A stretch of 64,000 nucleotides of DNA, taken from the NCBI RefSeq assembly GCF_000373905.1, contig NZ_KB892706.1:31873-95872 (forward strand), in the 5' to 3' direction. Of this stretch, positions 40,392 to 58,715 are shown one piece after another. This stretch comes from Mycobacterium sp. 155. GTDB lineage: Bacteria; Actinomycetota; Actinomycetes; Mycobacteriales; Mycobacteriaceae. Each line of letters begins with the position of its first letter. The first letter of the stretch is position 1. The notes below the pieces were generated by a model. That model was not told the origin of the DNA, ran no database searches, and saw only the letters and a list, made by a program, of their open reading frames with translations. The position numbers and the translations under genes are program-made.

Positions 40392-41060
40392 TCACCGCGT
40401 CCGCTCCCCCGGCGTATTCAGCCGGCGGGCATCCAACAGGCCCGGGCCGGTCAGGTCGTAGCCGCCCAGAATGTCGTCGGCCTGCGCGCCCGTCAACTCG
40501 TGGCGAGCAGGTGTGCGAGGAAACCACAGGCGTGACGCCGCAACCGCCAACCATCCCTCGGCGATACCCAAGACGCCGGCCACCGCGAACACCGCTGCGA
40601 ACTGCACACAAATCCACGGCATCACCGCGACCTGCCCAAACGACGCCCCCGGCTGATAGACCAGCAGAGACAACACCACAATGACCGCACCCAGACCCGC
40701 CGCCGCCCACAGCAGCACAGCGATCGGATAGCCCCGCAGATCACCCGGGATCAGCCGGGTCACCACCGCTTTCAGCACGTAGCCACCAATAAGGCCGAAC
40801 GGGGCCAGCACCACCACGGCGGACATGAGCACAAGCTCGACCTGCGAGGCCGGGGAGCGAGTGGTTCGCAGCCATAACGGCGGCAGCAGGGTGTCGTCGT
40901 GCGGGTCGGGCACCGCCACGGACTGGAGCCGCTGGCGGGCCCGCACTTTGCGGCCCAACTGTTCGGCCCGGCGCCGCTGAATGGTCGACCACCCCTGGTG
41001 GCGGGCGATCCAGGCCCGGCGCAACTCGTCGAACTTGTCGTCGCTGCTGGGATCACGCAT
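40392..41060 (-). CDS. Four-helix membrane protein heading the T4SS operon
   Basis: A 222-residue protein with a basic cytoplasmic start rich in Arg (residues 12-48), four transmembrane segments (about 76-98, 112-132, 140-160, 165-185) and a C-terminal tail with ELTGAQADDILGGYDLTGPGL. No family is recognised. Its ATG at 41060 lies exactly 6 nt after a TAGGCT -10 box, so the mRNA is probably leaderless. The promoter is one of four identical-type elements shared with the coupling ATPase, esx and eccC genes. Confidence 0.75.
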   Translation of the reverse strand: MRDPSSDDKFDELRRAWIARHQGWSTIQRRRAEQLGRKVRARQRLQSVAVPDPHDDTLLPPLWLRTTRSPASQVELVLMSAVVVLAPFGLIGGYVLKAVVTRLIPGDLRGYPIAVLLWAAAGLGAVIVVLSLLVYQPGASFGQVAVMPWICVQFAAVFAVAGVLGIAEGWLAVAASRLWFPRTPARHELTGAQADDILGGYDLTGPGLLDARRLNTPGERTR

Positions 41061-41069
41061 GAATTGAGC

Positions 41070-41106
41070 CTAAAGCTGCCCAGAACCCCCATTAGGCACC
41101 AATTTT
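41070..41106 (-). promoter_or_regulatory. Shared ESX/T4SS promoter element, site A
   Basis: On the minus strand: AAAATTGGTGC, about 23 nt with CTGGGC, then TAGGCT (-10) and 6 nt to the ATG at 41060. The distance from CACC to CTAA on the plus strand is 27 nt, the same as in sites B, C and D. Confidence 0.75.
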
Positions 41107-41352
41107 GCAGTGCTGACAGCGCTGCGTCTGCGCCGGTCTTGTCGCAGCTCAACCTCGATGCCGGCCACCCCAAGCTGTCGATGAAGGCGGGTAGCCGCCG
41201 GTGGGTGGAGCCGCCGGATCAGGCCCGGTCTGCCCGACTTGGCCGAGCCCGCCTGTGCCGCAGCCGTCGAGGTGGAAAAATTGGCGCCAACGGGAGGTTG
41301 CAGAGCGGTCTAGACGTGGATCACCGTCGTCATTGGACAAAGGGAAGGCGCA

Positions 41353-41529
41353 GTGCGGGTTTGGCTCGAGTTTTCGTTCGCGGGAAACCCCCAGGCCAAG
41401 GCCGCTGGTGCGGGCTGGGATACCCGCGCCAAGTCCTGGTATGCACCCCAGGCGGCCATGCCGGGTCTGCAACGATGGACGCCGCTGCCCGAGCTGCTAC
41501 CCGGAGAGGATCGCGGCGCCCCCTACTGA
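41353..41529 (+). CDS. Small DUF5710-domain protein
   Basis: A 58-residue protein read from a GTG at 41353 with AAGGGAAGG about 5 nt upstream. The sequence RVWLEFSFAGNPQAKAAGAG, then WDTRAKSWYAPQAAMPGLQRW, is the DUF5710 pattern (x-V-x-F-A-x-x-x-AKAxGAxWDxxxKxWYAP). It ends in LPELLPGEDRGAPY. DUF5710 domains are found in DNA-processing proteins of plasmids and phages, such as primases and antirestriction factors, or alone as here. The biochemical role is unknown. It lies on the plus strand between the coupling ATPase and the T4SS operon, both minus, within an otherwise empty 500-bp gap. Confidence 0.8.
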   Translation: MRVWLEFSFAGNPQAKAAGAGWDTRAKSWYAPQAAMPGLQRWTPLPELLPGEDRGAPY

Positions 41530-41561
41530 CATCCAGTTAGCATCAGACTGAGACGGTGACA

Positions 41562-42947
41562 CTAATTTTGTGAAACTACAGTCGTCGTCGTCCGAGCGGT
41601 ACGCAGTGCGTCCAAATACGTTCTGAAATCGGACCACTCGATCAATTCCACCATTTGTCCAGGGCCGCCCCGGACGATGAGCCGGGCCTCTCCGCTGTTG
41701 CGGGGCATCAGTTCCTCGGCTTCCAGGGCGTTACCGAACGCGCGACCGGTGGTCTTGTCATCACCGTTGTGGTCGTAGGACTGGTGGCTGCGGGTGGCCT
41801 TGCCCGCCCAAAACGCCGCCGACTCCATCAGATCACGCTCATGGGAGCCATACATGATCAAGCTCGCCGGCGTCACGTCACGGATCGCCCGACCCTGCAG
41901 CGGGCCGTAAATCGCCTCCAGTTGCGAACCCGCCTGGGCGGCATAACAAATAGCGGTCCCCAGGCCGCGAGACTCAGCGAGATACTGGGGTAGTCGCGGC
42001 AGCGGGGTGTTGGTGATCTCGTCCAGGAAGAATCCGAGGCGGTGGAACTCTTCCCATTGGGCGACTTTGGTTCGCTGCCGGTTGATCAGATGATCCATCA
42101 GCGTGATGGCCTGGGCGGCGACTGTTCCGTCGGCGGGGGTCAGCAGATAGATTGTGGCGCTGGGGTCGTCGAGAAAGTCTAGGCTCAGCGGCGGTAGCCC
42201 CCGGTCGCGCTTGGAGGTTCGCAGCCAGGCGGTCAGAACTTTGGTTACCGTCATCTTGACCGAGTCGCGCTGTTTGGCTTCCATGTCGAGCACCCCGTTG
42301 ACGCGCGCCTCGAACAGCGGATCACCGCATGCTGCTGCTGCGTTGGCCCACGACGGTTCGGCGCTGACCTGAAAAGCTCCGCTGCTGTTCTTCGCCGGCT
42401 TTTCCACTTTTTCCGCCCCTTCTAACGCCCAGTTCATGCTGCCGTTGAAGACGGGCGGGCTGGCGGCGTAGAGCAGGCAGGTCAGCGGGGCGAACGCGAG
42501 TTGGTCCCACGGCCCGGGATCGGTGCCAGACCGCAATGCGCTGCCCGACAGGGCCACCGAGGACGTGCTCAACAGTGTCTCGGCCACCGCCATAGCGTCG
42601 TCGAGGGTGCTGATCAGGGCGGTCGGGTCGTAGCGGTGAGGCGCGAAGTCCTTGGGATACCAGGGTGCCGCGATGGGGCGCAGATCAATCAGGGCGGCCG
42701 GGCCCCACCGTCGGGAGGCCACCAGTTGCATCAGGTCGTCCTTGCTGGAGGACACCAACGCCGGCCCCGGCCACAACACAGCGGCCTGAGAAAGCCAGCG
42801 GCGGGTCTTGCCGGTCCCCGGCGGTGCAAACGCGCCGATATGCGGGGCGCTTTCCAGTGGGCGCAGAAGCCCGTCACGGCCACGCACCCATCCCGCGAAA
42901 GGGGTTACCGGAGGCCGAAACCCGTCCTCGTTGAACGAATTGTCCAT
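41562..42947 (-). CDS. VirD4/TraG-type T4SS coupling ATPase
   Basis: A 461-residue ATPase with Walker A PPGTGKT (residues 42-48) and Walker B GFFLDEITN, plus a C-terminal motif AQAGSQLEAIYG typical of TraG/VirD4 coupling proteins. It lacks an obvious N-terminal transmembrane anchor, unlike most VirD4 proteins, so it may dock through a membrane partner. It would bring the DNA-relaxase complex to the channel. Its ATG at 42947 lies 6 nt downstream of a TAGCGT -10 box, predicting a leaderless mRNA from shared promoter site B. Confidence 0.9.
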   Translation of the reverse strand: MDNSFNEDGFRPPVTPFAGWVRGRDGLLRPLESAPHIGAFAPPGTGKTRRWLSQAAVLWPGPALVSSSKDDLMQLVASRRWGPAALIDLRPIAAPWYPKDFAPHRYDPTALISTLDDAMAVAETLLSTSSVALSGSALRSGTDPGPWDQLAFAPLTCLLYAASPPVFNGSMNWALEGAEKVEKPAKNSSGAFQVSAEPSWANAAAACGDPLFEARVNGVLDMEAKQRDSVKMTVTKVLTAWLRTSKRDRGLPPLSLDFLDDPSATIYLLTPADGTVAAQAITLMDHLINRQRTKVAQWEEFHRLGFFLDEITNTPLPRLPQYLAESRGLGTAICYAAQAGSQLEAIYGPLQGRAIRDVTPASLIMYGSHERDLMESAAFWAGKATRSHQSYDHNGDDKTTGRAFGNALEAEELMPRNSGEARLIVRGGPGQMVELIEWSDFRTYLDALRTARTTTTVVSQN

Positions 42948-42956
42948 ACGTCAACG

Positions 42957-42992
42957 CTAAGGGCTACACAGCGGGGCTCTTCGCACCAATTT
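42957..42992 (-). promoter_or_regulatory. Shared ESX/T4SS promoter element, site B
   Basis: On the minus strand: AAATTGGTGCG, 23 nt, then TTAGCGT (-10 TAGCGT) and 6 nt to the ATG of the coupling ATPase. The CACC-CTAA spacing is 27 nt as in the other three sites. Confidence 0.75.
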
Positions 42993-43105
42993 CTCCGGCA
43001 CCGGACGCGACCGACCTCCTATGCGGAGCTCGACGACCGCGGCACGACGCGATGGCCAGTCGCGCCATCACCAAAGGTGGCCGACGACGACAAATCCTCT
43101 CCTGG

Positions 43106-44791
43106 TTAGCCCGTCCACGCCTGCTCCTGCCGAAACGCCACGATCGCGACGTCGAGGGTGCGTTCTGCGGTGCTGATGCGCACCGTGGACCGGGAGGTCT
43201 GCACGAACCGTAGATCAGGATCGGGCCCGCCCGGGTCGGCGTCATCGGCCAGAGTGATCACCGTCGAGGACAACCCGGCCGGCGCGTTGCCCCGACGGTC
43301 GTTGACCACGATCGTCGGCACGAACTCCGGTGCCCGTCCCAGGTCCACGACGGCGACGTTGGGTTGGGACACCGAGTGCCAACGACTGGGCTCATCGGAA
43401 TAGATCGCGATCCGCTCCCCGGCCGCAGCGGCCCGGATAATCAATTGGCGCACATAGAAATCCGAGGTGTTCATCAAGATCCGGGTGACCTGTGCCGGAT
43501 CAGTCAGCGCCCACATCACCAGGTCGTCGCGATGAATCCCCGGGTGGGCGGTCAGATCGTCGTGCAAGGCGGCCCCCACGAGAACCCCGGTCGCCCCGAT
43601 CGGGATCTCCAACTCATCGGGCCGCTCCAAGGTCGCGGTGGGCAGCCGCAGCCGGGGTCGCTGCGTCGGGGCTGCCCACAGCGCCGCGGCCTGCTGATCC
43701 CCCGCTAGCGGATTCAGGTACAGCGTCGGCGGCTGCTGGGCTGGCTGGGGATCATCGGTACGCACCAGCGCCGACACCAGCACCGGTCCCCCGCCCTGCG
43801 GCTGGGTGCACCGCGCTTTGGTGATTGTCGTGACCTGCACCACCGAATCGCTACGCAGCGACCACATCTGGTTTAGCGAGGCCGAGGTGATGTCCTCCGG
43901 GGAGAAATACCAGCTGCTCAGATGCCCCGGGTGGGCGTCCAGGGTGCGCCAGCCCACGTCCACGGCCGGCGCCGACTCGCGCACCGCCGCGCGACGTGCC
44001 GAACTGCCCGCATCCGCGTCGTCGGCCGGGTCCTCTTCGGCGGTGTCGGGCGGGGCGGCCAGGCCGGCGCCGAGCTGGGCCAGCGCCTCGTCGAGTTCCT
44101 CGGCGCTCACGGCGGTAGCCCTCACACCGTGTTGGCGTAGCGCGGTGACGATGCGGTCGGTGGCTGCCGCTGCCGCCGCCCCGATCGAGCGCCGGTAGAC
44201 CAACCCTTCTACGGAGTCGTTCAGGTCTAGGCGCACGATGAGGCGCGTCTGGCGGGCACCGGCGGCGGGGCGATCGGCCAGCAAGGTGCTGTAGAGGGCC
44301 GGGTAGCCGCTGCCGCGACGCACCCGCTGCCCGGACTGCACCACGTCGATGCTGATCCGCAGCCCGCCCGGCTGATCGAGGTTGTCGATGAGAACCTGCA
44401 ATGGCAGCAGGTTTTCGGTGTAGGTGAGCGCCGAACCACGCAGGAACGTCGGGGTGTAGGCGCGCCCGGCCACCTCGACCATGGTGATGGCCTCGTGTGG
44501 TTCAGCGCGCACCCCCACCATGGTCGATCCGCAGGGCACATCGACCGCGACGCCGGCCGCCGCCACCGTGGTGCGACGGGTCCGCCACCGCAGCCGGGCA
44601 GCCACCCATGCGGCGGCGTTGCGGCGGTACACGGTGATCAGCAGCAGCACCAACGCGGCGACACCGATCACCGCGCCCGGCCACCACCCGAACCGGTGCG
44701 GGGGCAGTGCCGCGAATGCGGCCAGGGCGATGACCTCGGCGGCCACCACCGCGGCGGCGGTGGGACGCACTGCCACAGTGCTGGCCTTCAT
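43106..44791 (-). CDS. eccE: ESX membrane component EccE
   Basis: A 561-residue EccE with two N-terminal transmembrane segments (about residues 12-30 and 37-55) and a large soluble part with the EccE-type segment PCGSTMVGVRAEPHEAITMVEV and YTPTF, a central Ala/Asp-rich linker and a C-terminal part. EccE sits at the periphery of the ESX membrane complex. The identification rests on position after mycP and the two-helix layout. Its start overlaps the mycP stop by 4 nt. It is the last gene of the eccB-espI-eccD-mycP-eccE series. Confidence 0.88.
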   Translation of the reverse strand: MKASTVAVRPTAAAVVAAEVIALAAFAALPPHRFGWWPGAVIGVAALVLLLITVYRRNAAAWVAARLRWRTRRTTVAAAGVAVDVPCGSTMVGVRAEPHEAITMVEVAGRAYTPTFLRGSALTYTENLLPLQVLIDNLDQPGGLRISIDVVQSGQRVRRGSGYPALYSTLLADRPAAGARQTRLIVRLDLNDSVEGLVYRRSIGAAAAAATDRIVTALRQHGVRATAVSAEELDEALAQLGAGLAAPPDTAEEDPADDADAGSSARRAAVRESAPAVDVGWRTLDAHPGHLSSWYFSPEDITSASLNQMWSLRSDSVVQVTTITKARCTQPQGGGPVLVSALVRTDDPQPAQQPPTLYLNPLAGDQQAAALWAAPTQRPRLRLPTATLERPDELEIPIGATGVLVGAALHDDLTAHPGIHRDDLVMWALTDPAQVTRILMNTSDFYVRQLIIRAAAAGERIAIYSDEPSRWHSVSQPNVAVVDLGRAPEFVPTIVVNDRRGNAPAGLSSTVITLADDADPGGPDPDLRFVQTSRSTVRISTAERTLDVAIVAFRQEQAWTG

Positions 44792-46446
44792 GACATCCTC
44801 CGTCGGATCGCGGCGACACCGGCCAGCGCGCCGGTCAGCCCGAGCACGGCCAGCGCGCCGATCAGCGCGGTGTTGCGGGGCCGCTGATCCGGGGCCGGCG
44901 CCGGCGGTGGGACATGCAACGGCGTGGAAAGGTGTTCGGCCGGTGTGGCGTCACCGGGGGCCACGTCGTAGGTGAGCGCGGCAACCGGGTCCACCACCCC
45001 GGCGCCGACCTGGTTATCGACCCCATGGGCGGGGTTGTGCGCGGTTTCGGTGAGCCGCCGGATGACCTGATGGGCAGTCAGATTGGGGAATTTCGCGCGC
45101 ACCAACGCCGCCGCACCCGACACGTAGGCGGCGGAGAAGCTGGTGCCCCAGAAGCCATACCCGGTGCCGGGGTCCTTGGCGGGCAGGGCGTTGACCGCAC
45201 TGCCGTTGAGGCTGGACAGTCCCATGACGCGGTAACCGGGAGCGGCCACTCCGACCCACGGCCCGGCGATGCTATCGGGCATCGGTTGTCCGTCGGGGGT
45301 GAGCGCCCCGACGGTCAACACGTAATCGGAGTACCAGGCCGGAGTGACGATGGTGTGGACCCCCGACCAGTCGCGGGCGTCGTTGGGGTCCAACGGGTTC
45401 GACGACGGGTTCTGGGCGCAGTCGGGCTGCAGGGGGTCGCCCTTATTGCCTGCCGCCGCGACGATCACCACATCCTTGTCGACGGCGGCATAGCGGACCG
45501 CCGCACCCAGCGGGTCCTGGTTCACCGGGGCGGCGGCGTTGATGCAGCTGGCCAGCGAGACGTTGATGACGCGCACCCCCGGCAGATCAGCGGCGTGGCG
45601 GATCGCCCGCGCCAGGGTCACGATGTCGCCGGCCTTGCGATGTTCCTCGGCCTCCTGCGGCGTCGGATTGGCCGGGGAGAACTGCGGGGAGGTTTGCCGA
45701 ATCGAGATCAGCGCCGCGTCCGGGGCTACCCCCACGACTCCGTCCGGGGTGCCCGGCGGCAACCCCGCCACCAGCGGCACCCCGCCGCTGGGATCGTCGG
45801 GCCCGCCGGCCTGCGGGGCGTCCGGCGGCGGGGCGTCCGGCGGCGGTGGCCCGGCCGGCGCCGGCGGCGGCGGGGCGGGGGCGGTCACGGTCACCGTGGC
45901 CGCAGGCGGTGGGGGCGGCGGGGGCGGCAGCTGTGCGGGGTTGGCCGGCACTCCCGGCGGCGGGAGTGGGGCACCCACTCCGGCCGGTCTCGGCACCGGA
46001 CGGTCAGCGGGATTCGCGGGGGCCGCGCCGATAATCGAGGCGACGATCGTGCCGTGGCTCTCGCAGTCGACCAGCCCGCCGTTGGCGTCCCCCATCACGT
46101 AGTCGCCGCCGGGAAACAGCGCCGGGAATCGCGCATTGGGCGTCACGCCGGTGTCGATGATCGCCACGGTGACCCCCGCGCCGGTCGAATACTGCCACGC
46201 CTGAGCCAGATTCATCATCACGTTGCCCGGTGCGGGCTGGCTGAGATTCGGGTCGGCGATCACCGCCGGCTGGGCACAGCCATAGTTTTGGCGCATCGGT
46301 TCGCTCGGGCCCGGGGTGTCGTCGGGCGGTAGTGCGGCCGGGTCGATGACCGGCGGGGCGATCGCCCACGCCGCCGGGGGGGCCAGCACATGGGCGGCGA
46401 TCAACGCGCCCGCGCCCGCGCAGGCTGCCGCACGGCGCACCGACAT
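44788..46446 (-). CDS. mycP: Mycosin serine protease MycP
   Basis: A 552-residue subtilisin-type protease with a signal sequence (1-28), catalytic Asp98 (IIDTGV), His131 (ESHGT) and Ser at about 435 (WGTSFSAAYVSG), and a C-terminal transmembrane anchor. Between His131 and the next core strand lies a long Pro/Ala-rich insertion (about residues 140-245), a larger version of the loop known in mycosins. MycP stabilises the ESX membrane complex and processes some substrates. It overlaps eccD by 1 nt (TGATG) and eccE by 4 nt. Confidence 0.95.
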   Translation of the reverse strand: MSVRRAAACAGAGALIAAHVLAPPAAWAIAPPVIDPAALPPDDTPGPSEPMRQNYGCAQPAVIADPNLSQPAPGNVMMNLAQAWQYSTGAGVTVAIIDTGVTPNARFPALFPGGDYVMGDANGGLVDCESHGTIVASIIGAAPANPADRPVPRPAGVGAPLPPPGVPANPAQLPPPPPPPPAATVTVTAPAPPPPAPAGPPPPDAPPPDAPQAGGPDDPSGGVPLVAGLPPGTPDGVVGVAPDAALISIRQTSPQFSPANPTPQEAEEHRKAGDIVTLARAIRHAADLPGVRVINVSLASCINAAAPVNQDPLGAAVRYAAVDKDVVIVAAAGNKGDPLQPDCAQNPSSNPLDPNDARDWSGVHTIVTPAWYSDYVLTVGALTPDGQPMPDSIAGPWVGVAAPGYRVMGLSSLNGSAVNALPAKDPGTGYGFWGTSFSAAYVSGAAALVRAKFPNLTAHQVIRRLTETAHNPAHGVDNQVGAGVVDPVAALTYDVAPGDATPAEHLSTPLHVPPPAPAPDQRPRNTALIGALAVLGLTGALAGVAAIRRRMS

Positions 46447-47963
46447 CAATGGTTCCGCACGTAGTGCAGGTATCCGATCGCCCACGCCGCCAACGGCACC
46501 ACGACGACATACAGGGCGTACTCGAGCCATTCGACGAGCTCGCGCACCGTCTCGGAGAAAATGTGGGCCGGTACGAACGCCCCGGCGGCCAGCGCGCAGA
46601 CCGCTATCGCCACCACCACCGCCGCCGACCACAACGCCGGCGCGATCGCCGCCGGGTTGGCTGACAGTCCGTAATGCAGCGGGATCGCAAACAGTGATAG
46701 GGCCGCCCCGGTGACCAACGTCATCGAGCAGCGGCGGTCCCGGAACGCCCTGGCGCGCAACACCGAACACAACGCACAGACCGCCACCACGGTGACCGCC
46801 GGCCACTGCCGTCCAACGCCGGGATGGATGGCGAACCAGGATGCCGCGACCTGGACGGCGGCGATCCCGGCCAAGATGCCGCGCAGAACCCGATTGGCGC
46901 GCAGCGCCACCTCGGCGACCTGATCGCCGCGCAGCGTGACATCTTCGGGGGCATCAGCCACCGGAGACAGCGTGTCCTCGGGTTGGCCCGGGGCGCGGGC
47001 GAACAGATCCTTGCCGGTGATCGAGCGGAAACTCTGACGCGGCACCCGCGCCAGCCAGCGGGCCACACTCGAACAACTCACCGATGCCACCAGCACCGCG
47101 ACCAGCACCACCACCGCGATGCGCTGGCCGGGCACGTCGAAAAACATCCGCACCGCGGCCGCGCCGAACCCTGCGGTCGCCACCACCGTGACCGCCGCGG
47201 CTGACACCCAATAGCCGCCAGTGACTTTCGCCAACCCCACAGCGCTGACGATGGCGACCAGGCAGGCCAGGAATGCGTGCGGGGCGCCGGGATGGGCGCC
47301 AGCAGGGGCGCACGCGGCGGCCAAGGTCAGCGCTGCCGCCGTCGACGCCGCCAGCGCGCCGATCACGAAACGCTCTGACTGCAGCCGGGTGCACACCCAG
47401 CCAGCCCCGGCCAGCAGGACCGCGGCGGCGCCGAACACCGTGGGAACGACCCATCCCCCGCCGCTGGCCCACCGCATCCGCCACAGAATCAGCGCCGCCA
47501 ACCCCAGCGCCGTCAGCGTCAACATCACCGCCACCCAGCGGGCGTCGCGCGCCGACACCGTCGGGAAGTGCTGGCGGGCCCAGCCGGCCAGTGCCGTCGA
47601 CACGTTCTCGATATTCGGGGTGTAGCGCACCGCGTGATCGGCGGGGACCAGAGCCAGCAGTTCGGCGTCGGTGATGCCCTGGGCGGCCAGCGACATATCC
47701 CCGGCCAGGGCGGTCATCCCCGCGGCACGAACGAACACGTATGTGCCGCCCGGCAATTCGTCGTCGCCGGTACTGCGCAGCTGGCGGTTGATTGCGTCGC
47801 GGGTCGCGTCGGTCAGCGCGTCCAGCGGCACCGCGGCGGGCAACACCATGTCGATCTGGTGGTGATCGCCCACCAGGATCGACACCCGGCATGACGCCGG
47901 CACCGCCGGGGCGGGCGCCGCCGAGGCCGGCGCCGCCGTGGGCATCGACCGCAGGCTGGTCAC
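46446..47963 (-). CDS. eccD: ESX membrane channel component EccD
   Basis: A 505-residue protein with an N-terminal ubiquitin-like domain (about residues 25-105, CRVSILVGDHHQIDMVLPA through LVPADHAVRYTPN) and about eleven transmembrane segments from residue 140 to the end. This is the EccD layout. The GTG at 47963 overlaps the stop of the EspI-like gene (GTGA). The length is normal. EccD forms the inner ring of the ESX membrane pore. Confidence 0.93.
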   Translation of the reverse strand: MTSLRSMPTAAPASAAPAPAVPASCRVSILVGDHHQIDMVLPAAVPLDALTDATRDAINRQLRSTGDDELPGGTYVFVRAAGMTALAGDMSLAAQGITDAELLALVPADHAVRYTPNIENVSTALAGWARQHFPTVSARDARWVAVMLTLTALGLAALILWRMRWASGGGWVVPTVFGAAAVLLAGAGWVCTRLQSERFVIGALAASTAAALTLAAACAPAGAHPGAPHAFLACLVAIVSAVGLAKVTGGYWVSAAAVTVVATAGFGAAAVRMFFDVPGQRIAVVVLVAVLVASVSCSSVARWLARVPRQSFRSITGKDLFARAPGQPEDTLSPVADAPEDVTLRGDQVAEVALRANRVLRGILAGIAAVQVAASWFAIHPGVGRQWPAVTVVAVCALCSVLRARAFRDRRCSMTLVTGAALSLFAIPLHYGLSANPAAIAPALWSAAVVVAIAVCALAAGAFVPAHIFSETVRELVEWLEYALYVVVVPLAAWAIGYLHYVRNH

Positions 47964-49456: not shown

Positions 49457-49523
49457 CTATCAATCCTCACGGTGTGGAAGTGGCACCTATCGGCACATGT
49501 TGTCGGGTCCTTGATTTTCCGAA

Positions 49524-51044: not shown

Positions 51045-51121
51045 AACGCCACCCGCACCCGGCGCTTCCCGGTCAAAATCGGCACCACTTTCAGCCCCCT
51101 AGACATTGCGGAATCCGCAGT

Positions 51122-51985
51122 TCAGGCCGCCGCCGCGGCGGGCGCGGACAGCAGCTCGGTGAGGTCGGCGCGCAAGCCCTCCGCCGTCGTGGGCCAGATG
51201 CTCATCCACCGTTTGCCGTCGGCGGCGGTCGAGACGGTGAAACTGATCCGGCCCAGATCGGTGTCGGCCACGGTCAACACCCGTGCCTGCGGTGACACCT
51301 GGGCGCCGCGATCAAGGACGGCGACCACGGCCATCGCCGAGCGGTCCAGATCGTGAGCGGCGGCCACCGCCTGCACCGTCGAGGGTGGCAACCCCAGGCG
51401 CGACAGCGCCGTGGACACCGCGGGCCGGCCATGCGGGGCGGCGGTGCTCATCGCCGTGGTCACCAGATCGAGCTGCACGTTGGCGCCGTCGATGTCGGCC
51501 GGTGTGCCCTGCCCGAACGCCGGAATCAGCATGTGGCACATCAACTCCGCCTGCCGACGCCCGTCGTCGGCCTCCCCGACCGGACCCACCACCATCTCAT
51601 CGCCGTCGCGGGCGGCCATCGCCATCCAGCGGCGATGCCGGCACACCACCATCACCCGCTCGTCAACGACGCGGGCGTCGGGGTCTGCTGAGGGCGGTGC
51701 CGGGTGGCGCACCGAGAGCACCGCCTCGCGGTCCGGGCGGCCCAGCACCGTCATCCAATCGCGCACCATGTCATCGACACGGCCCGCCCCGTCGATCACC
51801 CCAGCCTGGTGCAGCGCGGCGTATTCCGCCGTCTGCGACAGCGGCCGGGGGCCCTGCGTCGTCTGGACGATCAGCGACTCGTGGATCGACGGGATGAACG
51901 GTTTGAGCCGCAGCGCCGCCGGCATGGACTCCACACCCAGCAGCGCCTGCAGCACCCACACACCGCCGACAGATGTTGTCAGCAC
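51122..51985 (-). CDS. espG: EspG-type cytosolic chaperone of PE/PPE proteins
   Basis: A 287-residue soluble protein with the EspG fold pattern. It starts VLTTSVGGVWVLQALLGVE, has a middle block MAMAARDGDEMVVGPVGE and a C-terminal RISFTVSTAADGKRWMSIWPTTAEG strand pair. EspG binds the tip of its cognate PPE and keeps PE-PPE pairs soluble. The GTG at 51985 has GAGGAG 8 nt upstream; the frame is open to 52012. It lies between the esx pair and eccB, with a strong hairpin (52019-52041) just before it. Confidence 0.9.
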   Translation of the reverse strand: MLTTSVGGVWVLQALLGVESMPAALRLKPFIPSIHESLIVQTTQGPRPLSQTAEYAALHQAGVIDGAGRVDDMVRDWMTVLGRPDREAVLSVRHPAPPSADPDARVVDERVMVVCRHRRWMAMAARDGDEMVVGPVGEADDGRRQAELMCHMLIPAFGQGTPADIDGANVQLDLVTTAMSTAAPHGRPAVSTALSRLGLPPSTVQAVAAAHDLDRSAMAVVAVLDRGAQVSPQARVLTVADTDLGRISFTVSTAADGKRWMSIWPTTAEGLRADLTELLSAPAAAAA

Positions 51986-52018
51986 GCTTCGTGCTCCTCT
52001 CTGTCCGGCCAAGGAAAG

Positions 52019-52041
52019 GGGGGCCGACGTCGTCGGCCCCC
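52019..52041. terminator. Strong GC hairpin between esx and espG
   Basis: An 11-bp perfect stem (GGGGGCCGACG with CGTCGGCCCCC) with a 1-nt symmetrical centre, in practice a 9-bp stem with 5-nt loop. On the minus strand it is followed by CTTTCCTT. It lies 43 nt beyond the esx stop and could attenuate read-through into espG-eccB. Confidence 0.6.
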
Positions 52042-52083
52042 TTCTCCCTCGCGGGCCGTGGCCCGCTTCGGCCGGGGTTCGGG

Positions 52084-52383
52084 TTACCCCTGGAACGAGT
52101 TGTATGCGGAAATGTCTTGGGCCATATAGTCTGACGCGGAGGTGTCGACCGCGTCACCGTGGGACGCGATGACCGTCTTGCCGTCGTTGATGCCCTCGAT
52201 GATCATGTTCTGGGCCTGCTGGTAGCCGACCGAGCCGTGCTCGGTGTTGAAGAAAGCCTGGATACCGGCCAATTCGTGCAACGCTTCCTGGCCGATCTGA
52301 TCGAGCTCCTGGCTGTAGCTCATCATGGCGCTGGTGTAGTCGGCCAGGCCGGCGAAGTTGTACCGCATGTGTCCGTCAGTCAT
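52084..52383 (-). CDS. Esx-family secreted protein (EsxA-like)
   Basis: A 99-residue all-helical protein of WXG100 size. The usual Trp-x-Gly turn is replaced by FFNTEHGSVGY. The C-terminus has the secretion motif Tyr86-x3-Asp90 (YMAQD) and ends YNSFQG. It would form a heterodimer with the Esx protein encoded 39 nt upstream. The ATG at 52383 has AAGGAG just upstream. Both Esx proteins are expressed from promoter site C. Confidence 0.9.
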   Translation of the reverse strand: MTDGHMRYNFAGLADYTSAMMSYSQELDQIGQEALHELAGIQAFFNTEHGSVGYQQAQNMIIEGINDGKTVIASHGDAVDTSASDYMAQDISAYNSFQG

Positions 52384-52422
52384 CAGTTACTCCTTGAGTG
52401 AAAGTCGTTGGTGGGCGCTGGG

Positions 52423-52737
52423 TTAGGAGAACCGCAGCTGGCCGGGGATGGCCGCCAGTGCATGCGCGTTGTCCTCGTCGCGGGCGGTGTAGCCCTGCGT
52501 GTTCTGCCGGATCAGATCGTTGAGCTGCTGAAAACGCGTCTGAATCCGCAGCTGCGCCTCGTGCACCTCCGCGGAGGTCTTGATGTTCATATCGCCGCCG
52601 GCGCCGTTGAGGATCCCCCCGCCCTGCACCTGCTGGGCGTGATCGAGGTAGCGCTGCAGGACGTTTTGGGCCCGACGGCTCAATTCGTCCATGCGCTCGG
52701 CGAACGCGACGAGTTGTGCGGCTCCAACTTCAGCCAT
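52423..52737 (-). CDS. Esx-family secreted protein (EsxB-like)
   Basis: A 104-residue helical-hairpin protein with the turn region GGGILNGAGGDMN in place of WxG and the secretion motif Tyr83-x3-Asp87 (YTARDEDN). The same ARDEDN/AKDEDN stretch is found in the EspC-like protein at 58808. The ATG at 52737 has AAGGAG upstream (GCAAGGAGACCATC). Longer frame to 52809 overlaps the PPE gene and promoter. It is the first gene of the esx operon, with a 5' leader of about 43 nt. Confidence 0.9.
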   Translation of the reverse strand: MAEVGAAQLVAFAERMDELSRRAQNVLQRYLDHAQQVQGGGILNGAGGDMNIKTSAEVHEAQLRIQTRFQQLNDLIRQNTQGYTARDEDNAHALAAIPGQLRFS

Positions 52738-52786
52738 GGTGATGGTCTCCTTGCCTGTCTTGGTCTTTCGAGCGGGTAATTCGAGT

Positions 52787-52822
52787 CTAAAAGCGCCCAG
52801 AGGGAGCATTACGCACCAATTT
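52787..52822 (-). promoter_or_regulatory. Shared ESX/T4SS promoter element, site C
   Basis: On the minus strand: AAATTGGTGCG, 23 nt with CTGGGC, then TTAGACT (-10 TAGACT). The same 27-nt spacing as in sites A, B and D. It overlaps the stop of the PPE gene (52809). The esx ATG lies 44 nt after the -10, so this transcript has a leader with a ribosome site. Confidence 0.75.
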
Positions 52823-54065
52823 CTGCCCTCTGCCCCCTCCCGGCTCGGGCCGTCACTTGCATCGTGCGAGTCGGCATCCGATCCGCACCGCCCTGCTGGT
52901 GCTGCTCGCGGGCCACCGCCGAAGCCGGGGCGCCGTACAGGCCGCCACCCATGCCCGCCGACGGCACCGGGGCGGTCTCGGCCAGGGGCAGCGCCCCCTG
53001 CCAGCCTCCCGGCAGGCTGGGAGCCGACGGGGGGCTGAAGCTGCTGGCGGGGCGTACCAACGACGCTGAGGCGGTCCCGCTGGTGAACACCCCGCTGCCC
53101 AGTCCGCCCAGACCGCCGCCGCCAGCACCGAGCCCCGACGCTGCACCGCCCAGCCCGGACGCCGCCGACCCGCCCGCCGTCATCGCCCCCGGCAGCGCCG
53201 GTGCCATCGCACCGGGCAGATCGGCTCCGCCCATACCGGTGAACATGGAGCTGAACGGGCTGAACAAGCCGGACAGCTGGCTCGGGGCCGAGGTCAACAG
53301 CTGCGGCAACTGGCCGCCCATTGACCCCAGCGACGAGAATTGGCCCAGCATCGAGCCCATCGACCCTATCGCCGACATCGGGGAACTGGCCAACGCCGCC
53401 GCGGGTTTCGCGCCCTGGCCGGTGGCATCCACGGTCTGGGTCATCGACTTCGCGCTGGCCTGCAGGGCCCCTTGGGTTCCGGACTGGGCGGCCGAGGCGG
53501 CCGCTGCCGCCGCGGGTGCGGCGGGATCAGCGGCGCTCGGCGACAGCGGCGGCGGGGTCGCCAGCGCCGCCAGCGCGGCCTCCACCACCGCCTGATAGCT
53601 GGTCATCAGGGACGCGTTCTGAACCCAGTAGCCCTGATAGAGGGCGGCGAGCTGCAGGATTGCCGGGGTGTTGATGCCCATGAAATTGGTGGCCGCCAGC
53701 GCCTGTTGGGTCGCCAGGTTCGTTGTGCAGACCGGGGCGGGGATCATCGACGCCAGCGACGTCTGATGTGCGGTGCCGGCCTCGGTCGCCGCGGCGAACG
53801 CTTCCTGAAGCCAGGTGAACGCCAGCTCGAGAACGGTGGCGTAGTCGGCGGCCGAACCCAGCATCCCAGTGCCGCCCAACCCCTGCCAGCCGCTGGCCGC
53901 GGTCATGCCCGCGTTGCCGAGCAGTGCGGCCATCTCGGCCTGCAGCATGTCGGCCAAACCCTGATGTCCGGTCGCCGCCGTCATCACCGTCGCGGCGTCG
54001 TCGCCGCCGGCCATCAGGGCGTGGTTCAGCTCCGGCGGGCTCGCCGCGGCATCTCCGAAGGGCAT
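52809..54065 (-). CDS. PPE-family protein
   Basis: A 418-residue PPE. It has an N-terminal PPE domain (about 1-175) with SPPELNHALMAGG at residues 9-21 and the turn GWQGLGG, and a long Gly/Ala/Ser-rich C-terminal part (175-418). The C-terminus is basic (ARAGRGQRAEIGA). PPE proteins are secreted by ESX as dimers with PE and bound by EspG. It follows the PE gene by 15 nt in the usual order. Confidence 0.93.
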   Translation of the reverse strand: MPFGDAAASPPELNHALMAGGDDAATVMTAATGHQGLADMLQAEMAALLGNAGMTAASGWQGLGGTGMLGSAADYATVLELAFTWLQEAFAAATEAGTAHQTSLASMIPAPVCTTNLATQQALAATNFMGINTPAILQLAALYQGYWVQNASLMTSYQAVVEAALAALATPPPLSPSAADPAAPAAAAAASAAQSGTQGALQASAKSMTQTVDATGQGAKPAAALASSPMSAIGSMGSMLGQFSSLGSMGGQLPQLLTSAPSQLSGLFSPFSSMFTGMGGADLPGAMAPALPGAMTAGGSAASGLGGAASGLGAGGGGLGGLGSGVFTSGTASASLVRPASSFSPPSAPSLPGGWQGALPLAETAPVPSAGMGGGLYGAPASAVAREQHQQGGADRMPTRTMQVTARAGRGQRAEIGA

Positions 54066-54080
54066 TGCTGGAGAGGGTTT

Positions 54081-54386
54081 CTACAACGACAGTAAGGTCT
54101 GGCTGATGACGTCACTGGCGGTGTAGCTCACACCGTTGACGCCGATCGTGGCCGCAAACAGCGACCGGGCGGCCATCAGGTCGGCCATCATCGCCTGCGT
54201 GGCCGCGCCGCGGGCGTTCAAGGCAGCCGCCAGGGCGACTCCAGCCGGGTCCAAGCTCGGTGGGACCACTGCGCAGGTCAACGGCGCGGCAACTCCGTCG
54301 GCGCCCGCCATTGTCGCCACACCGGCACTCTCGGCCGCCGACGACGTCCCCAGCAAAGGAGCGGACACATTAACCGGGCTTGTCAT
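54081..54386 (-). CDS. PE-family protein
   Basis: A 101-residue PE-type helical hairpin lacking a long C-terminal extension. The C-terminal secretion motif Tyr88-x3-Asp92 (YTASD) is present. The PE residues near the N-terminus are replaced (VVPPSLDPAGVALAAALNARGA region shows the helix pattern). It pairs with the PPE downstream. The ATG at 54386 lies at the end of an inverted repeat whose loop holds the ribosome site AGGGAGG. Confidence 0.85.
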   Translation of the reverse strand: MTSPVNVSAPLLGTSSAAESAGVATMAGADGVAAPLTCAVVPPSLDPAGVALAAALNARGAATQAMMADLMAARSLFAATIGVNGVSYTASDVISQTLLSL

Positions 54387-54409
54387 TATGTTTGCCTCCC
54401 TAACATAAT
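54385..54409 (-). promoter_or_regulatory. RBS hairpin/dyad at the PE start
   Basis: The arms ATTATGTT and AACATAAT (8-bp perfect) flank a 9-nt loop that on the mRNA reads AGGGAGGCA, the Shine-Dalgarno sequence. The AUG of the PE gene overlaps the 3' arm. The AT-rich arms stand out in this GC-rich DNA. It may act as an RNA switch or as a repressor site. Confidence 0.55.
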
Positions 54410-54464
54410 CTTGCCGAACTCAGCCTAGTTTAACCACGGCGTCAGAGTGGTTGCTGCACGAGTT

Positions 54465-57400
54465 TTACGACGGGGGCCGGCGTAGCGCCATGTGCGGCGG
54501 TTCCGACCAGGCCACCAGCACCCCGTCCTGCGCGCTTCGGGTGATCAGCGTGCCTTTGCCGGGCCGCTGGGCCTCGGCATGCACCCCGTTCATGATCTGG
54601 CCGTGGGAACGGCGGCCGTCCAGAGCGATCACCGGCGGCAGCGCACCCACCATGCGGCCCAGCACCCCGTTGCCCTGCGACTGGAACGACCAGCTGCGGA
54701 TGTCGGCGGTGGCGATGATGTGCAGGCCCAGGTCGGCACCCTGTTCGACGAAACCGACCAGCGGGGCCATCGGATGCGCGGCGGTGTGCCAGGAGCTGAT
54801 GTCGTCGGCGATGACGAAGAACTGTCGGCCCGTCCAGAACTGCTTGGTCAGCAGGTCGTGCTGGCTGGTGCCCGGTGGCGGCTGGCGCTCGGTCATCACC
54901 TCGGCCAGCCGCTCGCACACAGTGCGGATGTCCTCCTGCCGGTAGGCGTACTGGGCCAGCCACCGGTCCTCGGGCACCACCCCGATCAGCTTGCGGGTCG
55001 GATCGAACAGCACGATCGTGGCCTCATCGGCGCTGTAGCGCGCCATGATGCCGCGCATCACCGTGCGCAAGAAATTGGTGCGCCCCGATGCGCCCAGGCC
55101 GGTGGCAATCGCGTGCGGGGTGGCCTCGAAGTCGAAGCACGCCGGCTGCAGCGTGGTCTCCAGCAACCCGAACGGCACCAGATGCCGGGGCCAGGACGGA
55201 TCGGCCATGGCCATGACGGCCTCGAAGGTCACCGTCTCCGGCAGACGCAACACCGTGCTGACCTTTTCCACACCGGCCACGTCGCGAACCTCGGCGGCGA
55301 TCCCGTGCACGTCGAGCTGGGGCTCGGGCTGCATCGTCAGCGAGGGAAAGCCCACCATCAGGTGATGGCCCCAGTGGGTGACTCCTCGGCCCGGGACGTC
55401 GGGAACCTCCTTGGCCGGGCGGCGCGACGGATCGGCCGGATCGGGCGCCACCGTCGTCTCGATGGTCTGCACCAGCCGCATTTCCAGGATCTGGCTGGTG
55501 GCATTACGCATCGAGGTCCGCATCCCCGACAACAGGCTGGTGTGGGTGATCACCACCCGCACCCCGTAGTTGCGCGCGTTCATCAATCGAAGGACCGTTT
55601 CCAGCCCGTTGGGGTGGTCCTTGGAGAAGTTCTCCAAACCGTCGATCACCACCACCACGTCCCCGCCGGGGACACCGATGTCAGTCGGGGTGGGACCGAA
55701 CTTGGCCTCCCGCACCGTCTGCATGTCCAGCCCACGGGTCGTGAAGATCCGATCGCGTTCATCCCGGATCGCCTCCACCGTGGCCAGCAGCCGGTTGACA
55801 CCCTCGGTGTCGGAGGTACCCGCGACCGCGGCGACATGAGGCAGTTCGGACAACTGCGCCAGCTGCGGGCCGCTGGCGGCCACACAATAGAACTGCACCC
55901 GCTCCGGGCGATACATCAGCGCACAGGCGGTCACCATCGTCATCGCCGCCGTGGTGGCCCCCCGCTGCGGCGCGCAGATGATCAAAGCGTTGTCGGACAA
56001 CAGATCCAGCGCGTGCACCTCCTGGCGGTGATCACGCGGCCGGTCCACCAACGCCACCGGGAAAGCCAAGCCCGGCGTCTGGCCGTAGTCCACCTGCCAC
56101 GGTTTACCGCGCCACCGGTCGACCAGTTCCACCACGGTGGGAATGTGGCCACGCCAGCGGCCCTGCTTATCGCGCTCGGGCAGCGGCGGAAGCCAAAACG
56201 GCCGCGGCGGACGTTCCGGGCGGGCCCGCAACGACTCGCTGAGCGCGTCGACGATCTTGGGATACTCCTGGCCCGGCGGCAACGCCGGGACCTCCGCGCG
56301 GCCCCCGTCGTCGGGCTGCACCGGTGCGGCCAGCAGCCCGTCGATGTCCTCGGACTCCTCGACGGTGAAGGGTCGCGGCTCAAACCAGGTGCCCGCGCGC
56401 AGCGGCTGCACCGGTCCCTCATCAACGACTTTGGGCACGAACCGCGCCGAGGACAAGAAAAACCGGTACTGGCGGGGCTGGCGCAACGCCACCCTCAGAA
56501 ACGCTGTCCCCTCAGCGCCTTCCTCCGGAACATGGGCCGCCACCGCGGAACCGATCGCCTCGCGAGAGTCCTGCTCACGGCCCAGACGCGCGGCCACCCG
56601 GAAACCGAGCAGCTTGCTGACCTCGCGTAGCCCCTGGGTGTCGACGGTTTGGCCGACCAGCTGCAAGAACACGTGCAGGGAACGCCCCACTCGGGCGATG
56701 CGTTCGAACAGCGCCCGAAACTTCGCCCCCCACAACGGATCCTTGAGCATCTCGTTGTACTCATCGACGATCACCCACAGCACCGGGATCGGCGCCAGGC
56801 TGGGATCGGTCAACCGGCGGTGGTTGTAGGTCGTCACATCAGGGCAGTCGTCGAGTTCGGCGATCAGGGCACCGCGGCGGTCGATCTCGCCGTCGAGGGC
56901 GTCATACATCCGTCCCACCAGATGCCGTTCGTCGGCCAAGTTCGACACCGCGGCGACAACATGCGGGAACTTCACCAGCGTGCCGGCCGCCGACTTCAAT
57001 TTGAAGTCGGAGAACACGATGTTGAGCACCTGCGGCGAGTGAGTCGTGCACGCCGAGGCGACCTCGGTGATGATGCCCTCCGACTTGCCCGCCCCGGTCG
57101 TGCCGACAAACAGGCTGTGCATGCCCATGCCGCGCTGGGAGCCCTCTTTGAGGTCGAACTCGACCACCTCGCCGGTGATCGCGTCGGTGCCGACCGGGAA
57201 CCGCATCCACGCCGGGCCCTGCACCATCCGGGGCGCCCACAACCGGTCAGCATCGAGGTGGCGTGGATCGCCGATGCCGAGCACATCGAGCAGATTGCGT
57301 TGTTCGCTCTGCGTCGTGGCCGCCATCGCGGCGCTCGCCGCGCCCGCCGGGCGGTAACGGGCCAACCCCCGCGCGAAGCGCTCCGCCGCCGGCGCACTCA

Positions 57401-58670
57401 TCTGATCGGCCGTGGCATAGAACGCCTCGTCGAGCTCGTCGGAGCTGTGAGCGGCCCCGGCGAAGGCCACCGCGTCCTGGCGCGGCAACCGCTTGCGTAG
57501 CGTCCCATCACCGGTCAGCCGGTAGGTGCTCGCGGGATCGAATCCCACCCAGTACCGGCTGGCGAACACCTCCGCCGGGCGCGCGGGCACCGCGTCGGCC
57601 AACCGCACGAAACACGTTCCGGCATAGCCGCCGCTGCCGGTCAGACCGGCCCAATCCTCCGGTGTGCCGCAGGCGTCGTCGATGACCACCCGCAGCGGCA
57701 ACACGCCAGCCGCGTCCCCACCATGCAGACCGCTCGACACCGACGGCGGCGTCCACGGCGCCCGCGCGCCATCGGGATCCTCGTCGAGGAAAGTCTCCAG
57801 CTGCGCCGGCGAGCTGAACAGCAAGCGCCGCTCACCGCAGCCGTCACGGCGGGCCGAATACTGCAGATGGGGAAGCCATTTCGCCCACTCCCACCGCTGC
57901 GGTGAGGCCGACACCACAATGATCTGCACATCGGCGGGGCTGTGAAACGCTGTCAGCTGGCAGATCATCGACCAGGCCAGGCGGCGCACACCGTCGATGT
58001 CCCCCACCAGAGAGATCCCGGGGAACCGTTGCAGCCAAATCGCTTTCGGCATGTCGTCGATGTATTCCTGCTCCAGCAGGAACTTACGTAATGCGTGACC
58101 GGTCGCCGGCTCCAGCGACGACGCCTCAGGAATCTTGGGTTTCTCCAGCGTCATCGCGAGCGCCACCTGGCCAACGCCCACCCGAACCACGCCGAAGGCC
58201 TCACTGCCCGGCTGGCGGTCCCACATCCGCGCCGAACCGGGGATGCCCGCCAACTGGTTCGGCTCCCAATGGAAGTGGCGGCGATGCTCCCACTGCTTGC
58301 GGCGCTGGGTGTCGACGTCGGCGCGGATCTCGTCCTGGCGGGCGTGCCAGCGCCTGCGGAAGCCCGTCAGCTCACTCCAGGACATCTTCTGCGCGGCGCC
58401 GCGCCCGCGCATCATCATGCCGACCGCACCAAAGACCGCCATGAAACCGAAGATTCCGACACCGCCGGCCATCGAGCGCATCCCCGTGGCGTACATCGCC
58501 ACGATCACCCCCACAATGCCCACCACGACGGTGATCGGGAAGACGATGGCCCACACACTGCGCGGCGGCGGAACCGGGTAGGCGATCGGGGGTTCCAAGG
58601 CGATCTTGCCGCCGCCAGTCTCCGGCGCGGGGACAGGCTCACCAGGACGCACAAACGGCTGAGTCGTCAC
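54465..58670 (-). CDS. eccC: ESX FtsK/SpoIIIE-type motor ATPase EccC (single chain)
   Basis: A 1401-residue EccC with two N-terminal transmembrane segments (about residues 37-80), a stalk, and three FtsK-type ATPase domains. Domain 1 has an intact Walker A GTTGAGKSE (about residue 515). Domain 2 has CAPQRGATTAAM where the Walker Lys is missing, and domain 3 has GLGASGRTNF with Arg in its place. Domain 3 normally binds the Esx signal. In ESX-1 this protein is split in two; here it is a single chain. The GTG at 58670 lies 6 nt after a TAATGT -10 box, so the mRNA is probably leaderless (site D). Confidence 0.95.
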   Translation of the reverse strand: MTTQPFVRPGEPVPAPETGGGKIALEPPIAYPVPPPRSVWAIVFPITVVVGIVGVIVAMYATGMRSMAGGVGIFGFMAVFGAVGMMMRGRGAAQKMSWSELTGFRRRWHARQDEIRADVDTQRRKQWEHRRHFHWEPNQLAGIPGSARMWDRQPGSEAFGVVRVGVGQVALAMTLEKPKIPEASSLEPATGHALRKFLLEQEYIDDMPKAIWLQRFPGISLVGDIDGVRRLAWSMICQLTAFHSPADVQIIVVSASPQRWEWAKWLPHLQYSARRDGCGERRLLFSSPAQLETFLDEDPDGARAPWTPPSVSSGLHGGDAAGVLPLRVVIDDACGTPEDWAGLTGSGGYAGTCFVRLADAVPARPAEVFASRYWVGFDPASTYRLTGDGTLRKRLPRQDAVAFAGAAHSSDELDEAFYATADQMSAPAAERFARGLARYRPAGAASAAMAATTQSEQRNLLDVLGIGDPRHLDADRLWAPRMVQGPAWMRFPVGTDAITGEVVEFDLKEGSQRGMGMHSLFVGTTGAGKSEGIITEVASACTTHSPQVLNIVFSDFKLKSAAGTLVKFPHVVAAVSNLADERHLVGRMYDALDGEIDRRGALIAELDDCPDVTTYNHRRLTDPSLAPIPVLWVIVDEYNEMLKDPLWGAKFRALFERIARVGRSLHVFLQLVGQTVDTQGLREVSKLLGFRVAARLGREQDSREAIGSAVAAHVPEEGAEGTAFLRVALRQPRQYRFFLSSARFVPKVVDEGPVQPLRAGTWFEPRPFTVEESEDIDGLLAAPVQPDDGGRAEVPALPPGQEYPKIVDALSESLRARPERPPRPFWLPPLPERDKQGRWRGHIPTVVELVDRWRGKPWQVDYGQTPGLAFPVALVDRPRDHRQEVHALDLLSDNALIICAPQRGATTAAMTMVTACALMYRPERVQFYCVAASGPQLAQLSELPHVAAVAGTSDTEGVNRLLATVEAIRDERDRIFTTRGLDMQTVREAKFGPTPTDIGVPGGDVVVVIDGLENFSKDHPNGLETVLRLMNARNYGVRVVITHTSLLSGMRTSMRNATSQILEMRLVQTIETTVAPDPADPSRRPAKEVPDVPGRGVTHWGHHLMVGFPSLTMQPEPQLDVHGIAAEVRDVAGVEKVSTVLRLPETVTFEAVMAMADPSWPRHLVPFGLLETTLQPACFDFEATPHAIATGLGASGRTNFLRTVMRGIMARYSADEATIVLFDPTRKLIGVVPEDRWLAQYAYRQEDIRTVCERLAEVMTERQPPPGTSQHDLLTKQFWTGRQFFVIADDISSWHTAAHPMAPLVGFVEQGADLGLHIIATADIRSWSFQSQGNGVLGRMVGALPPVIALDGRRSHGQIMNGVHAEAQRPGKGTLITRSAQDGVLVAWSEPPHMALRRPPS

Positions 58671-58679
58671 CCAACCACA

Positions 58680-58715
58680 TTAACCCGGCTCAAACGGTCA
58701 AATCCGCGCCAATTC
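58680..58715 (-). promoter_or_regulatory. Shared ESX/T4SS promoter element, site D
   Basis: On the minus strand: GGAATTGGCGCG, 23 nt, TTAATGT (-10 TAATGT), then 6 nt to the GTG of eccC. It is the most diverged of the four copies (AATTGGCG instead of AATTGGTG), but spacing is the same 27 nt. Confidence 0.65.

Follow-up and report, generated by a model that had tools for sequence, protein, structure and literature searches.

The closest described counterpart of the arrangement reported here is the EspM–WhiB6 module of chromosomal ESX-1 loci, found in Mycobacterium marinum, M. tuberculosis and M. smegmatis. In M. marinum, as parts of one study describe, espM and whiB6 form a divergent pair beside ESX-1, and EspM acts as a repressor that binds the promoter of whiB6 (PMC7002343); sections of two further papers discuss EspM at the eccA and espE promoters (PMC11005418) and report that WhiB6 affects ESX-1 genes (PMC6343904). 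WhiB7 is a second point of comparison which, in the passages of PMC3905903 and PMC10245118 that bear on it, acts through region 4 of SigA together with an A/T block 5′ of the −35 hexamer, and pRAW-type plasmids are a third, since they too combine ESX genes, type IV secretion system (T4SS) genes and WhiB-family genes on one replicon. We analysed a stretch of 64,000 nucleotides (nt) of Mycobacterium sp. 155 (the window; positions 31873–95872 of C2, the 147,520-bp (147.5-kb) plasmid contig NZ_KB892706.1), in which a bipartite element, AAATTRGYGC-N23-TANNNT, heads eccC, PE and esx as well as two genes of the T4SS region, one of them encoding the coupling protein. From its sequence and distribution, we consider this element to be probably the promoter signature of a plasmid-encoded WhiB6-family (WhiB-like, Wbl) regulator, most likely an activator.

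The fixed 23-nt spacing between the upstream block and the −10 box is the strongest evidence that the element is real. When AAWTDGYGY-N(s)-TANNNT was sought on both strands of C2 and of stretches from five related plasmids, 26 matches fell at s = 23, whereas no other s between 15 and 31 gave more than 2; in 20 further related loci the same expression matched 45 times at s = 23 (40 on the plus and 5 on the minus strand), three times at s = 22 and never at the remaining values from 15 to 31. Within the window, AATTGGYGC occurs 8 times against 0.97 expected, a count reached in 0 of 100 shuffles, and AAATTGGTGC-N20..26-TTA occurs three times in the 4.61-Mb genome, all on C2 and none on the chromosome. 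For scoring, a matrix was built from relatives only (67 sites, reduced to 41 after removal of near-identical ones), its training set excluding the window plasmid and all ESX-1 loci; its consensus is AAATTAGTGC, 23 nt, TAGNCT, in which the invariant columns mirror the regular expression whose matches it derives from. Simulated sequence gave a mean of 0.15 matrix matches scoring at least 15 (maximum 2 in 20 runs), and a chance origin was ruled out by the spacing, the shuffles and the control loci described below.

The first-pass annotation of this DNA had proposed a shared element at four minus-strand starts, and all four sites are present and head the operons named; a fifth, before the PE gene, had been missed and was located by the matrix trained on other plasmids only. 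Across the whole plasmid this matrix, which contains no C2 training site, gives the four reported sites scores of 27.5, 27.2, 26.1 and 20.2. They read [A/G]AATTGGYGC, 22 nt, T, TANNNT, with 23 nt from block to TA in four of four, so the interval of 23 nt given earlier as preceding TTA is indeed constant, and is actually 22 nt from GGYGC to TTA and 23 nt to the TA of TANNNT. The block described as common to all four is exactly AAATTGGTGC at three, whereas the eccC site reads GAATTGGCGC; likewise the CACC and CTAA noted on the plus strand stand at those three and are CGCC and TTAA at eccC.

All five sites lie on the minus strand. Before a 222-residue T4SS-region gene with no Pfam family (40392–41060), the block AAATTGGTGC (41096–41105, score 27.5) is followed after 23 nt by the −10 box TAGGCT (41067–41072) and 6 nt further by the ATG, which makes the message probably leaderless; in relatives a gene of comparable size and position is also headed by the element. 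The coupling-protein promoter has AAATTGGTGC at 42983–42992 (score 26.1) and the −10 box TAGCGT at 42954–42959, 6 nt ahead of the ATG at 42947 of a TraD/TraG-type protein of 461 residues (41562–42947; PF12696, 4.6e-11). At the esx promoter, AAATTGGTGC (52813–52822, score 27.2) and TAGACT (52784–52789) precede an ATG at 52737, giving a 5′ leader of about 40 nt before two small Esx-type genes (52423–52737 and 52084–52383, together 52084–52737) with weak WXG100/EspC family matches. The PE promoter consists of AACTCGTGC (54456–54464, score 20.0) and TAAACT (54427–54432), with the PE ATG at 54386, and the eccC promoter of AATTGGCGC (58706–58714, score 20.2) and TAATGT (58677–58682), with the GTG of eccC at 58670, 6 nt further; eccC itself (54465–58670, 1401 residues) served as the query for relatives. 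The surrounding type VII secretion cluster encodes EccA, EccB, EccC, EccD, mycosin, EccE, EspG, PE, PPE and Esx-type proteins, and the T4SS genes include, beside the coupling protein, an AAA_10 ATPase and a TcpC-like protein. Outside the window a further site (C2 99891, score 22.1) lies 5′ of a 50-codon frame and a DUF4226 gene. An isolated plus-strand AATTGGCGC at 41279–41287 (score 17.6), with the last −10 letter wrong (TAGACG) and no convincing gene downstream, is probably no promoter; beyond the five promoters and C2 99891, two C2 matches at 17.4–17.6 and lower ones are doubtful, and the plasmid's own eccB has no matrix match scoring 9 or more.

No −35 consensus emerges in the spacer: its first six columns, where a −35 hexamer would stand at a 17-nt spacer, carry at most 0.52 bits each. 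The upstream block as a −35 box was ruled out by its distance and by this lack of a spacer consensus, in agreement with the earlier judgement that it lies too far from the −10 box. Among 114 matrix matches scoring at least 19 in C2 and 25 related loci, and counting only open frames of 60 codons or longer, the first start codon lies 6–7 nt past the −10 box in 47 and 35–48 nt past it in 37, and 9 have no start codon within 140 nt; because of the 47, many element-headed messages are probably leaderless. If transcription starts 6–7 nt past the −10 box, the block occupies about −45 to −36, directly 5′ of the −35 position.

Conservation was assessed with an EccC search that returned 133 plasmid records, five of them close (54.6–63.8% identity), and with 20 further related loci found by an EccC scan of genome contigs. 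Inspection of hand-picked genes in the close relatives placed the element 5′ of eccC, PE, esx, eccB, and coupling-protein or first T4SS genes in at least one of them, and 22 of the 25 related loci, some of them near-identical, hold a regular-expression site (67 sites in total), so the conservation in related plasmids by which the first-pass annotation proposed to judge the element is there. It lies in a different lineage from the one suggested: the pRAW comparison gave 0 element matches in the 44 kb scanned of 114 kb, and stretches of five control ESX plasmids, pRAW itself among them (the others being M. abscessus plasmid 2 and those of M. farcinogenes, M. chubuense and M. paragordonae; 213 kb in all), gave 0 matrix matches scoring at least 15. 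The complete M. avium plasmid pP4-4a, some of whose sites are in the training set (as L007), has 15 such matches, and pCBMA213_2 of Mycolicibacterium sp. CBMA 213, a close relative, carries the element as well. On this sequence comparison the element is conserved within an ESX/T4SS plasmid lineage other than that of pRAW. The proposal that secretion and conjugation operons are switched together is borne out to the extent that one matrix covers both and the element is kept at the same operons in relatives.

Three plasmid-type ESX loci in which EccC is split in two (L155–L157) have matrix sites of 25.9–27.8 before PE, and one split-EccC locus (G392) sits on a single contig of 5.5 Mb. The plasmid pMSPYR101 (L159–L162) keeps an EspM/WhiB6-like gene pair and two matrix matches scoring at least 15, and the 200 kb fetched out of 212 kb show no ESX core genes.

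A WhiB-family match (E ≤ 0.001) was found in all 10 ESX-plasmid records searched, in 8 of them above the curated cut-off. The window plasmid has two Wbl genes, both outside the window: a small one (C2 102684–102983, 99 residues) and a large one (C2 105103–105831, equal to L046:9404–10132, 242 residues), the latter with relatives on 20 plasmid records including pRAW and the M. avium TH135 plasmid. The small Wbl gene is divergent from a gene for a 258-residue helix-turn-helix (HTH) protein that matches EspM (NF052403, 2e-73, 247 bits) over model positions 129–366, the HTH half of a model whose full-length cut-off is 550. It has no N-terminal FHA domain, and neither, according to part of PMC7002343, has M. 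smegmatis EspM. A frame with the signature of this HTH protein lies beside the Wbl gene in 36 of 38 loci (30 distinct Wbl cores; the exceptions are L087 and L124), the comparison with the family library covering the window plasmid's protein alone.

WhiB7 was taken as the first candidate for the family of the small Wbl and was dropped for WhiB6 after a profile search of the PDB. Among solved Wbl structures, the plasmid's own protein alone matched WhiB6 (PDB 8d5v) at 9.6e-14 and WhiB7 at 2.2e-7, the M. poriferae Wbl matched WhiB6 at 6.9e-26 and WhiB4, the next, at 5.9e-5, and an eight-protein profile gave 7.5e-35 against 3.2e-7, two of the eight resembling chromosomal WhiB6 and thereby favouring it. 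The iron–sulphur cysteines of Wbl proteins follow the pattern C-Xn-C-X2-C-X5-C; the four cysteines are present in the plasmid proteins, with C-X2-C in the relatives. The C-terminal segment of 8d5v, FALGQLRSLA, is echoed by FAL[RK][QR]L in 37 of 38 loci, and most of the plasmid Wbl family, the window plasmid's copy excepted, has near the C-terminus a GRGR that recalls the RGR core of the WhiB7 AT-hook. The C-termini of the pRAW Wbl proteins differ from those of the element plasmids. A plasmid 'whiB6' had been named earlier in pCBMA213_2, and the word 'promoter' is absent from the main text of that paper (PMC5452490).

Plasmids of this type and the Wbl family mostly occur together. A close EccC (E = 0, >1700 bits) was found in 26 of 396 genomes of the genus, with a family Wbl on the same contig in 21 of the 26, of which 20 come from the 396-genome search and one, in G172 (= G001), from another search and is weaker (93–110 bits). 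Three draft assemblies (G278, G288, G415) have a plasmid-type Wbl match on a different contig, G284 (= G010) has as its only match a chromosomal-type Wbl on another contig, and the location of the match in G076 is not listed. In a set of 20 genomes, 19 had a Wbl match and one (G018, locus L066) had none. Searching 72,556 plasmid records with the window plasmid's own Wbl found 8, all five close EccC relatives included, and in some genomes, G107 for example, a high-scoring Wbl is present although no close EccC is.

Were the block read by a WhiB6-type protein, chromosomal ESX-1, which is WhiB6-controlled, would be expected to carry the element too, and this provides an independent test. The plasmid-only matrix was run over 16 regions of 20 kb adjoining chromosomal WhiB6-like genes and over 16 control regions, most of them from genomes already represented. 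With the spacing at 23 nt, the ESX-1 loci gave 15 matches scoring at least 14 and the controls 1; among 14 shifted spacings, none yielded more than 1 match in the ESX-1 loci or more than 2 in the controls. One locus, L175, proved to be plasmid-type and is included in the count of 15; without it there are 13 matches, whereas 60 column-permuted matrices average 0.55 and never exceed 3. Eight of the 13 precede the first ESX-1 operon, between what we take, from gene order, to be EspM-like and espG/eccA-like genes (L166, L168, L171, L172, L176, L177, L178 and L179), and one precedes PE35 (L174). The ESX-1 locus of Mycobacterium sp. 155 itself has a site scoring 17.9. Using a search pattern that we assume to represent it, PE35 was found in 9 of the 16 loci and in that of the host, two unrelated frames (second match in L174, L175) being excluded; the −10 box of the best site before it ends between −142 and −146 in 9 of these 10 loci, the host's included (−191 in L176), and the block of that site is mostly AAGAAGTGT. 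The M. smegmatis PE35 start, confirmed by 5′ rapid amplification of cDNA ends, is placed at −139 in part of PMC11728522, and the loci examined here may belong to other species. ESX-1 PE35 promoters thus appear, from sequence, to carry a weak version of the element near the start mapped in M. smegmatis.

The plasmid proteins therefore resemble the chromosomal module in matching both of its families, and the ESX-1 loci resemble the plasmids in carrying the same element; the present pair differs in being plasmid-borne, in having an EspM-like protein without the FHA half and in an element that also heads T4SS conjugation genes. The single regulator postulated in the first-pass annotation is supported, and what was there called unknown can be narrowed to a WhiB6-family protein adjoining an EspM-family one, with the same element in chromosomal ESX-1. 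We suggest that the WhiB6-like protein binds the element while docked, in the manner of WhiB7, on region 4 of the main sigma factor, and that it would read the block at about −45 to −36 in place of a −35 contact, RNA polymerase starting just past TANNNT. Activation rather than repression is favoured because the −35 hexamer is absent. The EspM-like protein would hold down the WhiB6-like gene through short repeats between the two genes, and relief of this repression would switch on the genes for type VII secretion together with the conjugation channel. Like WhiB7–SigA promoters, the element has an A/T-rich block directly 5′ of the −35 position; WhiB7 promoters, however, retain a SigA-like −35 hexamer after that block, whereas the present element has none and adds a GYGC half, so it is not a WhiB7-type promoter as defined by an A/T block directly 5′ of a SigA-like −35.

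A different fixed-spacing element is present in a stretch of M. abscessus plasmid 2 (L009), where TTTTGGGGTGT-N22-TANNNT occurs in five copies (L009 9389, 16629, 18295, 28690 and 31009), five of five with a spacer of 22. They stand ahead of PE and esx, of the coupling-protein gene and a T4SS-region gene, and of one further gene. The Wbl protein of that plasmid is divergent as well, and two fixed-spacing elements at like operons would fit the idea that regulator and site diverged together.

Several observations weigh against assigning the element to the plasmid WhiB6-like protein. The window plasmid's own Wbl is divergent, with C-X3-C (CxxxC) instead of CxxC, and is the sole one of the 38 without FAL[RK][QR]L. 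WhiB6-family genes are widespread, the profile matching 285 of 396 genomes, and the co-occurrence on plasmids could reflect shared inheritance. Three of the 25 related loci (L059, L060 and L066) are without a regular-expression site: L059 and L060 nonetheless have a Wbl, L059 (as L135) also having a matrix site of 21.6, and L066 (G018), whose EccC is 73% identical, has no Wbl match either. The bare expression matches once in a control ESX plasmid (L013). In the chromosomal comparison, the controls show 2 matches at a shift of +7, more than their 1 at the element spacing; 2 of the 13 ESX-1 matches share one in-gene sequence (L173 15841, score 15.6, and L177 5236, score 14.9), probably owing to coding constraint; 2 point opposite to the ESX-1 direction (L170 and one of those in L176); L165, L167, L169 (best 12.7) and L180 (best 12.2) have no match scoring at least 14; and the PE35 sites are weak, 5.6–8.1 in 8 of 10, the other two 13.9 and 14.6. 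The 38 Wbl–EspM intergenic regions hold no good site, the best being 12.3 (the plasmid's own, 5′ of the EspM-like gene) and the other 37 at most 9.1, so autoregulation through the element is unsupported. Published effects of WhiB6, as portions of PMC6343904 present them, go in both directions.

An alternative interpretation is that another factor reads the block, be it the EspM-like HTH protein, the large Wbl, or host PhoP, EspR, Lsr2 or chromosomal WhiB6. The EspM-like protein and the large Wbl are both encoded on the plasmid, the M. marinum protein acts at the whiB6 promoter and is discussed at eccA and espE as outlined above, and the host carries a chromosomal WhiB6-like gene whose product could act in place of the plasmid one. 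Between the EspM-like and WhiB6-like genes lie four direct repeats GCTAACGTT/GATAACGTT (L046:6867–6928, C2 about 102566–102627, outside the window). Such repeats vary from plasmid to plasmid, in the manner of phage immunity operators: the plasmid's own is AACGTTA (GCTAACGTT), others are ACTTAAG (AACTTAAG), AACACTAG and ACGCTAGC, and 3 of 11 intergenic regions have no repeat of at least three copies. They are likely EspM-type operators. Because they vary and the promoter block stays much alike, the EspM-like protein is the less likely reader of the block, and so is the large Wbl, because it is common to pRAW-type plasmids that lack the element. The distinction between EspM-type repeats and the block is not always clear, since a block-like AAATTTAGCGC with one extra T, which might represent a regulator site in a different register, occurs in 4 of the 38 intergenic regions (L072, L077, L105 and L111). 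Taken together, we consider a reader other than the plasmid WhiB6-like protein unlikely.

The element might also be a constitutive promoter with an A-tract (UP-like) element that was copied by descent and has no specific regulator, as the A/T run opening the block and the ordinary −10 boxes would permit. We consider this improbable because conservation extends to the GYGC half, which the search pattern admittedly demanded, and because the block stands at differing promoters and in chromosomal ESX-1 loci, and hardly in control DNA. An alternative sigma factor reading both blocks is slightly less probable still: two conserved blocks at a fixed distance do resemble a sigma promoter, but 23 nt is far above the usual spacer of 16–19 nt and the −10 box has the TANNNT form usual for the main mycobacterial sigma factor.

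In the literature searched, which did not include most subscription papers, we found neither a DNA motif for WhiB6 nor a study of promoters on these plasmids. With the plasmid WhiB6-like protein as its probable reader, an element common to ESX plasmids and ESX-1 would give WhiB6, a known ESX-1 regulator, a sharp and testable DNA motif, and would place conjugation and type VII secretion under one switch. It also bears on the idea, put forward in the portions of PMC4791881 that concern it, that ESX systems evolved via plasmids; the words 'WhiB' and 'promoter' are absent from the main text of that paper. We tentatively raise, as somewhat short of an even prospect, that AAATTRGYGC-N23-TANNNT defines a general WhiB6–SigA promoter class that was already present in ESX mobile elements and was kept with chromosomal ESX-1. 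The ESX-1 virulence regulator and its promoters would then descend from a conjugation switch, and plasmid and host WhiB6 present in one cell may still cross-read each other's promoters.

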